The notes beneath the pieces are model-generated. The model was not told the origin of the DNA. It saw only the letters and a list, made by a program, of their open reading frames with translations, and made no database searches. Below, one piece after another: positions 6,435-21,679 of a DNA stretch of 47,316 bases. A program made the position numbers and the translations under genes. Within the stretch, counting starts at the first letter, position 1. Each line of letters starts with the position of its first letter. Source of the DNA: a virus. Location of the stretch: positions 1 to 47,316 of the IMG/VR virus record IMGVR_UViG_3300013010_000001; one strand, written 5' to 3'.

Positions 6435-7145
6435 TCAGAACAGCCTACCCATGCTTTGCGCAAAAAGATAGGGGTCTTTTGCTGATTTTTTCAGATTGCA
6501 TGGCGGACAAAGGATCTGTATGTTCTCGCGCCCATTGCTACCACCTTTCGCCAGAGGCATAACGTGATCGACATGGTATCTATGCTTGCCTGATTTCTTG
6601 AGCTTGCACGCACAGCTAGCGCATTTGCCTCTCTGCATCTCAAGCAAGCCGGTTACATCCTTGTGCGTATAAGATCCGCTAGACGCGGCCTTGAGCGCCC
6701 TACGCCTGCTTTGACAGGCAACCGCAGACTCTGGATTGGCATCGGCCCACTTTCTTTTCGCAGCGCTTACCTTCTCTGGATTTTCAGCAGCCCACTTGAG
6801 CGCATAGGCTAGCTTCCTTCCCCTGTTTTCCTGGCAATATGCCTTATCGTAGACGCGCTTCTCTTCTTTTGCAGCCTCCCGAGCGGCTATCTGTTTTGCC
6901 TGCCACTCCGGATCTGTTTTGATCTTCTCATACCAAGCCTTCTTTCCTTTCAGAATGCTTTCGCGATTATTCTCGCGAGACTTAGCGTTGCTGGCTAGGA
7001 TGCGTTCTTTCTTGGCTGGATAGTTGATGGCACGCTGGGCGCTAGCGCACGACTTGCATTGATAGCAATAGCCGTCGCGAGATGAGGATTTTTTAGTGAA
7101 TTCTGAGATAGGTTTACTGGTGCTGCACTTGTTGCAATGCTTCAT
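6435..7145 (-). CDS. HNH homing-type endonuclease A
   Basis: About 236 residues from the ATG at 7145 (MKHCNKC). N-terminal Cys4 zinc knuckle (CNKC and CYQCKSC), a long basic helical middle with NPE repeats (ENPEKVSAAKRKWADANPES), then the HNH nuclease: CASC, YHVDHVMPLAKGG, NIQILCPPCNLKK. The metal-binding HNH residues are present. It is a clear paralogue of the gene at 20969-21628 and is preceded by the same folded leader and -10 box. No good ribosome site is visible before the chosen start, and a second ATG lies at 7163. Probably a free-standing homing endonuclease inserted between two accessory genes. Confidence 0.85.
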   Translation of the reverse strand: MKHCNKCSTSKPISEFTKKSSSRDGYCYQCKSCASAQRAINYPAKKERILASNAKSRENNRESILKGKKAWYEKIKTDPEWQAKQIAAREAAKEEKRVYDKAYCQENRGRKLAYALKWAAENPEKVSAAKRKWADANPESAVACQSRRRALKAASSGSYTHKDVTGLLEMQRGKCASCACKLKKSGKHRYHVDHVMPLAKGGSNGRENIQILCPPCNLKKSAKDPYLFAQSMGRLF

Positions 7146-7175
7146 TGAATACGCACTCATCATGTGGTCATCGGA

Positions 7176-7237
7176 TGTATGCGGCAAGCGATGATGAGTC
7201 GCTTTTCGGGGATCAGCCTAGCCGCAATCCGATTATA
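7176..7237 (-). ncRNA. structured 5' leader and promoter of HNH gene A
   Basis: On the - strand TATAAT (7232-7237) is followed by CGGAT, then TGCGGC pairing with GCCGCA (7221-7226 with 7180-7185). The enclosed region holds an inner hairpin AAGCGA/TCGCTT (7187-7203). The HNH gene at 20969 has the same layout, with different bases in the inner stem but pairing kept. A transcript from this -10 would begin at the outer stem. Confidence 0.6.
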
Positions 7238-20857: not shown

Positions 20858-20876
20858 CCTAAAAAAGCACCTGTGA

Positions 20877-20940
20877 TATAATCGGTGTTGCGGCTAGGGG
20901 GCACCCAAAAAGCAGTTAGTCACTGCCTGCCGCATACATT
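20877..20940 (+). ncRNA. structured 5' leader and promoter of HNH gene B
   Basis: Extended -10 TGATATAAT (TATAAT 20877-20882), then CGGTGT, outer stem TGCGGC/GCCGCA (20889-20894 with 20929-20934) and inner hairpin GCAGT/ACTGC (912-916 with 922-926 in the 20 kb count). A small GGG/CCC pair could make a third arm. Same order and outer stem as the leader at 7176-7237; the inner stem differs in sequence but not in pairing. Confidence 0.6.
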
Positions 20941-20968
20941 CCGACTACCACTAGACTGGTGCGATCTG

Positions 20969-21628
20969 TTGAAAACCTGCTACAGCTGTCACGTCGAAAA
21001 ATCATACTCAGAATTCCACAAATGCTCATCTCGCAAGGATGGGTGTCAGAGAGCGTGCAAATTATGCTCTGCTAGGATAAGCGCCGAGCGAAACTCGAAA
21101 AATCCAGAGGTCAGAAAAAAGCAATGGGCTTCGTGGAGCGCCGAAAACAAGGACAAAATAAAAGAAAAAGATGAAAAATATCGTCTCGAAAACAAAGATC
21201 ACGTTACTGCGTACAGGAAAAAATATTACGAAGCTAACAAGGAAAGCATTTTGGCCGTCGGTGCAAAATATCGCGCTGATGATCCGGAGGCGCAAAAGGC
21301 TAGATGCGCCAGATGGGCGAAAGCCAATCCGGAGAAGTGCCGAGCGAAGGAAAGAAAACGCAGAGCGCTCAAGCTAAACGCCGAAGGAAGCCATACGATT
21401 CATGACATAGAAAAGATGTTTTGGCTACAGAAAGGAAAGTGCGCAAATTGCAAGTCAAAGTTGAAAACAGAAGGCAAGGGTGTCTATCACATAGATCACA
21501 TCATGCCGCTCACGAAAGGCGGCGGTGATGGCCCTGACAATCTCCAGCTTCTTTGCCCCGGCTGCAACATAAAGAAAAACGCTAAAGATCCACTTGACTG
21601 GGCCAAGGAAAACGGTAAGCTGCTCTGA
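20969..21628 (+). CDS. HNH homing-type endonuclease B
   Basis: Paralogue of the protein at 6435-7145. Aligning the two puts the start at TTG 20969 (LKTCYSCHVEKS), giving 219 residues; no ATG or strong ribosome site is nearby. Cys4 knuckle (CYSC, CKLC), basic NPE-repeat helices (WAKANPEKCRAKERKRRAL), then HNH: CANCKSKL, YHIDHIMPLTKGGGDGPDNL, LLCPGCNIKK. Inserted between SSB and a small HTH gene. Confidence 0.82.
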   Translation: MKTCYSCHVEKSYSEFHKCSSRKDGCQRACKLCSARISAERNSKNPEVRKKQWASWSAENKDKIKEKDEKYRLENKDHVTAYRKKYYEANKESILAVGAKYRADDPEAQKARCARWAKANPEKCRAKERKRRALKLNAEGSHTIHDIEKMFWLQKGKCANCKSKLKTEGKGVYHIDHIMPLTKGGGDGPDNLQLLCPGCNIKKNAKDPLDWAKENGKLL

Positions 21629-21637
21629 AACCATCCC

Positions 21638-21656
21638 GCCCCGCTAACCACGGGGC
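21638..21656 (+). other. GC-rich hairpin after HNH gene B
   Basis: GCCCCG/CGGGGC with a 7-base loop, 10 bases after the HNH stop. No T-run follows, so it is not a clear intrinsic terminator; it may stabilise the mRNA end or be part of the inserted unit. Confidence 0.4.
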
Positions 21657-21679
21657 AATCCCAATGCCTGGAGGGGCAA

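Follow-up and report, generated by a model that had tools for sequence, protein, structure and literature searches.

Diverged int-alpA RNAs upstream of two HNH endonuclease genes in a phage, a candidate class of translational switch

The int-alpA RNA family takes its name from its location between integrase and alpA genes. Our literature search found no mechanism for int-alpA, which was named there merely as a table entry. The C4 RNA of phage P1 is composed of three stems, its loops are antisense to the ribosome site of the mRNA it targets, and changes of a few bases determine its specificity (PMC5320573). For T4-type homing endonucleases, RNA structure has been described that limits translation (PMC2988022). 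We analysed a 47-kb phage record (the window, meaning the whole stretch of 47,316 nucleotides) that encodes a portal protein, a terminase, a DnaB-type helicase and an SSB by Pfam, together with two HNH genes that lie far apart on opposite strands. A near-identity search of the locus against phages returned no match.

A sequence-only reading had proposed that the two HNH genes share a promoter box and a folded leader, and both copies were found where it placed them. The series common to both genes is a -10 box, P1, UAG, P2, a GAAAAGC-type junction, P3 and P1', seen as TATAAT (20877-20882 on the + strand, 7237-7232 on the - strand) followed by TTGCGGCTAGG, P2, an A-rich junction, P3 and TGCCGCATACAT. 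Leader B follows ssb and occupies 20888-20961 (+), comprising a three-way junction, site 1 and a Shine-Dalgarno hairpin. Its -10 box, which reads TGATATAAT in extended form, was called from the sequence and from positional enrichment in homologues. The three-way junction (20889-20934) contains P1 (20889-20894/20929-20934), P2 (20897-20899/20904-20906) and P3 (20912-20916/20922-20926), with the P3 loop UAGUC at 20917-20921. The loop has a complement in site 1, GACTA (20943-20947), and pairs with site 2, GACTG (20954-20958), through four Watson-Crick pairs and one G-U; site 2 is held in a Shine-Dalgarno-proximal hairpin (ACCA/TGGT, 20947-20960). Leader A follows a 373-aa gene without a Pfam match and occupies 7154-7227 (-), with the three-way junction at 7180-7226, P1 at 7226-7221/7185-7180, P3 at 7202-7199/7191-7188 and the P3 loop region CUCAUCA at 7198-7192. 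Site 1 of A is GATGA (7168-7172), and site 2, TGATGAG (7156-7162), is a 7-nt complement of the loop about 10 nt upstream of the ATG. Start codons were set by homology at TTG 20969 for HNH endonuclease B (219 aa, 20969-21628, +) and at ATG 7145 for HNH endonuclease A (6435-7145, -), and the longer, mechanically listed frames of both genes extend back into the leader RNA.

To place the leaders among known RNAs, a covariance model of related leaders was built and known families were compared. A pattern for the first half of the leader matched the window twice, both times at the leaders, with 0 matches expected from 100 shuffles. The covariance model scored the leaders at 57.5 and 51.3 bits and the next window match at 9.0 bits; both copies were among its 47 training sequences, so these scores demonstrate uniqueness in the window and are not independent support. 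At the Rfam gathering score there was no match anywhere in the window. At a relaxed threshold int-alpA (RF02996) matched B at 26.4 bits (E 6e-4) and A at 23.7 bits (E 5.5e-3), short of the gathering threshold of 35.8 bits, and the alignment placed the outer and inner stems of both leaders as expected. Relatives with the same core scored 36-55 bits against int-alpA and 12 of the 15 related loci tested exceeded the cut-off, which identifies the window leaders as diverged relatives of the known class. The window leaders are therefore diverged int-alpA RNA. They carry the P1/P2/P3 junction with the conserved (C)UAG, GAAAAGC and UG (AAAAAGC in B), and they do not sit between integrase and alpA genes. 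The C4 model (RF01695) had no match in the window, with P1 and P4 matching at 68.8 and 74.9 bits, and the comparison with HEARO/omega RNAs that the sequence-only reading had suggested likewise gave no covariance-model match.

The fold was assessed by compensatory change across relatives. In 47 sequences 91.8% of the cells of P1, P2 and P3 paired and 118 cells were changed on both sides, compared to 36.6 +/- 5.7 in shuffles, none of which reached 118 (0/500). The pattern scan had fixed the P1 sequence and hidden its variation in this set, and a second scan without the P1 constraint was added, bringing the set to 27 different P1 stems. Among 15 endonuclease-associated leaders (13 distinct), 97.7% of cells paired over 17 pairs (P1, P2, P3 and the loop-site 1 pairing), with 29 double changes (0/500 shuffles). 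These shuffles ignore relatedness; slid controls keep relatedness and dropped to 22-55%. For P3, 96% of cells paired in the same 15 leaders, three of the four pairs were changed on both sides in some row, and homologues with non-pairing inner arms, proposed beforehand as a refutation, were not found. The inner stems had been given as GCAGT/ACTGC and AAGCGA/TCGCTT with pairing kept, which held, except that by the family consensus the A stem is GCGA/TCGC and its extra AA and TT are junction positions (GAAAA and CU) outside the inner stem. Similarly, the outer stem is identical within the window as had been noted, and in homologues it varies with compensation (TCGGC/GCCGA, GCGGA/TCCGC, GCAGC/GCTGC). 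Hexamers resembling a -10 box peaked 6-9 nt before the 5-bp stem, with 55 at these four offsets in 135 unique copies and about 1-6 at each other offset, which supports the predicted transcript start at the base of the fold. Folded alone, B formed the three-way junction and the minimum-energy fold of A did not; the predicted junction of A rests on comparison with relatives. Single-sequence folding was left out of the evidence because its z-scores were weak (-1.8 and -1.4) and A misfolded. There is strong support for a folded RNA leader that is under selection and has its own promoter.

The main functional signal is covariation of the P3 loop with two downstream sites, one of them in the Shine-Dalgarno region, and was absent from the earlier description. 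In most leaders site 1 lies about 8-13 nt and site 2 about 20-28 nt after P1. With one copy taken per distinct loop (n=102), the mean complement to site 1 was 4.97 nt as compared to 3.07 +/- 0.08 for swapped partners (z 22.6), and to site 2 it was 4.62 nt as compared to 3.49 +/- 0.08 (z 14.2). Reversed loops gave 3.5 (site 1) and 3.6 (site 2) and upstream sequence gave 3.1. A complement of at least 4 nt was present at each site in 79 of 102 leaders, so that both sites were not seen in every member. The covariation recurred in the endonuclease-associated leaders alone, and named phages showed the same two-site pattern when read by eye. Loci found in bacterial genomes with the Rfam model gave z 5.9 and 5.0 (13 parsed copies), a set that is only partly independent as some genomes were first reached by our own pattern. 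Ten further Rfam-model copies were unparsed, several with CTAT for CTAG and with loop complements that by eye were apparently kept. The 3' end of site 2 lies a median of 7 nt before the start codon, and the centre of site 2 fell in the loop of the best hairpin in 67 of 86 cases, compared to 27% at random. The start codon followed P1 by a median of 35 nt (10-90% range 31-42), a tight spacing that is partly circular because the rule assigning start codons preferred about 36 nt after P1; the covariation is not circular.

Each pairing spans only 4-7 bp. For loop A (CUCAUCA) the pairing energy is -11.4 kcal/mol with UGAUGAG at site 2 and -5.6 kcal/mol with GAUGA at site 1, and loop B (UAGUC) pairs about equally with both of its sites (-5.7 and -5.6). 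Cross pairings between A and B are weaker (0.0 to -3.7), suggesting that the two leaders of one phage are largely independent. A search of the window for targets in trans of the two P3 loops returned 4 and 12 7-mers, a chance-like yield in which one of each was the loop's own opposite strand.

Leader-HNH blocks follow ssb in the window and in four related loci (L002, L003, L363 and L374). The leaders at this site vary, with loops UUAGUCA or CUCAUCA and P1 stems GCGGC or TCGGC; each difference is matched by the pairing partner and by both sites. Protein B is closest to that of L003 (74%), yet their leaders differ, suggesting that leader and protein have been shuffled. In the relative L365, ssb is followed directly by the downstream GCCCCGCTAACCACGGGGC segment and a block of about 780 bp is missing, corresponding to promoter, leader and HNH B at 20858-21637 (+). 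Promoter, RNA and gene thus behave as one insertion at the ssb site, absent from the same site in a relative as is characteristic of a free-standing homing endonuclease cassette; this empty-site comparison is confined to site B. The conserved GCCCCGCTAACCACGGGGC hairpin-like motif (window 21640-21665) is also found in L365, L368 and L378 and is kept with or without HNH. At a relative of site A (L403:3635-3745) the HNH leader is built differently, with P1 TGCGGA/TCCGCA and P3 TCCATG[CCGATA]CATGGA, and was missed by the model. Immediately upstream of the start codon stands TATCGG, the complement of this leader's loop, and the leader is possibly a cousin RNA with the same logic.

The element is present in more than 100 viral contigs. 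Our viral pattern scan returned at least 119 stretches, of which a few were evident chance matches in coding sequence that were lost once the fold was required. A similar though not identical pattern returned 24 stretches in a cellular-genome collection, and this difference suggests an element found mainly in phages. Downstream genes, scanned singly, encoded HNH, GIY-YIG, NUMOD or LAGLIDADG-type domains in 16 of 60 cases. Among 100 other genes of the same loci there was one such protein in the 25 families listed out of 56, a count that may be slightly low. Among the remaining downstream genes were integrases, methyltransferases, a helicase, tail proteins and unknowns. Annotated records give a similar picture: the gene after the RNA encodes an HNH or other endonuclease in E. 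coli phages Bas81 and Bas80 and Vibrio phage K122, an endonuclease follows at greater distance in one E. coli prophage, and a small uncharacterised gene follows in P22-like phages. In the phage of L002 the RNA occurs three times, twice upstream of an HNH gene and once upstream of a gene resembling the GIY-YIG-type protein of L117. With downstream genes this mixed, a leader specific to HNH genes was rejected. The proposal of a selected RNA travelling with the endonuclease thus stands in that the RNA is folded, has its own promoter and moves with the gene at the ssb site, and fails in that most copies precede other phage genes. Other arrangements were also seen. Three RNA copies lie head to tail with no obvious gene between them in L160 (2165-2377) and L179 (2550-2762), and a terminator-like hairpin and T run separate RNA and gene in L084 (4561-4640) and L193, where a stand-alone small RNA is possible. 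The Pantoea septica genome (L475, L486-L490) has six int-alpA matches, three of them within about 5 kb on one contig.

On balance we think that each diverged int-alpA RNA probably controls translation of its HNH gene as a 5'-leader switch, a proposal built from comparison of related leaders. Transcription would start at the base of P1, and the three-way junction (P1/P2/P3 with conserved UAG, GAAAAGC and UG) would present the P3 loop as a built-in antisense. In the ON state the loop would form a pseudoknot with site 1 just after P1, leaving the ribosome site free. In the OFF state it would make a loop-loop contact with site 2 in the loop of the Shine-Dalgarno hairpin, a pairing predicted to block the ribosome. 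The two pairings would compete in cis, and a factor, a ligand or folding kinetics would set the balance between ON and OFF. Sequence comparison established the fold, the promoter position, where site 2 lies and that the loop covaries with both sites. The order of the parts, the junction and a loop with two partners, one at the Shine-Dalgarno position, have the look expected of a two-state switch, from which we infer the switching itself. For a homing endonuclease the likely use would be limiting or timing expression of a harmful selfish nuclease. The loop and two-site pairing suggests how the int-alpA class may control translation, and its covariation provides a specific int-alpA model open to test by simple mutants. 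If this is right, mobile endonuclease genes move with a regulatory RNA and do not rely only on promoters already in the phage. More tentatively, int-alpA RNAs could possibly be a phage-wide class of two-state translational switches. Their conserved junction would respond to a factor or ligand by shifting the P3 loop from one partner to the other, site 1 or the Shine-Dalgarno site, and homing endonucleases would be a favoured cargo. Selfish nucleases would then bring their own tuneable expression switch from phage to phage.

The main rival is a trans-acting antisense RNA like C4 of phage P1 or the CI RNA of P4, which differs in the target of the loop, other mRNAs instead of its own. After release of a short 5' fragment, its P3 loop would block the ribosome site of further molecules of the same mRNA, with site 1 masking the loop in the intact transcript. 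The logic is the same as in C4, with three stems, loops antisense to the ribosome site of the mRNA they target and specificity from changes of a few bases (PMC5320573). In Rfam, int-alpA is listed as an sRNA gene. A single copy is present in most of the 50 viral records searched, and neither window loop pairs well with the sites of the other leader. However, site 1 keeps to a narrow position, which suggests contact within one molecule. Copies are also found in phages whose examined stretches show no sign of lysogeny, and immunity would serve no purpose there. The downstream genes are too diverse to share a single immunity function. In addition, int-alpA gives no match in P4, whereas C4 matches both P1 and P4. 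We consider this reading rather unlikely.

Stable 5' folds can protect mRNA. The leader could in this way be a constitutive translation enhancer or mRNA stabiliser, protecting the 5' end with static loop-site contacts and no switching, and the transcript would indeed begin with a stable stem. This leaves unexplained the two kept downstream complements of the loop, one of them at the Shine-Dalgarno position, and appears improbable. A DNA-level element, at which the mobile HNH cassette would be bound by a protein or recombined and whose fold would be incidental, would agree with insertion of the block as a unit. It is already strongly disfavoured, and we find it very hard to credit, given compensatory changes in three stems and two loop-site pairings, strand-specific placement between the -10 box and the start codon, and occurrence ahead of unrelated genes. 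A HEARO/omega RNA-like guide RNA for the HNH protein, suggested by an RNA adjoining an HNH gene, was rejected as the least credible reading: Rfam returned no match to HEARO at E <= 10, Pfam assigned the proteins only HNH-type domains in place of the split RuvC plus HNH of IscB, and the same RNA precedes many non-nuclease genes.

Compared to known systems, the candidate switch shares with the HEARO/omega RNA of IscB the position of an RNA adjoining an HNH gene. With the C4 antisense RNA of P1/P7 and the P4 CI RNA it shares an architecture of three stems and a loop that matches the ribosome site of the mRNA under control, here predicted for the downstream gene. Although its working principle resembles theirs, membership in C4 was rejected as the model did not match. 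C4 has two antisense loops and is excised by RNase P, whereas these leaders use one loop twice and are apparently transcribed from P1. With the hairpins of the T4-type genes I-TevI, segB and mobE they share RNA structure that limits translation of a phage homing endonuclease, which is predicted here. In the T4-type genes a simple hairpin sequesters the ribosome site and forms or not according to the promoter that made the mRNA, whereas the leaders have a conserved junction and a loop able to choose between two sites. Int-alpA has the same three-way junction with (C)UAG, GAAAAGC and UG, and its Rfam-defined copies show the same two-site pattern. The window copies differ in scoring below its cut-off and lying upstream of HNH genes, and its Rfam consensus leaves the 3' tail containing site 1 unpaired and ends before site 2.
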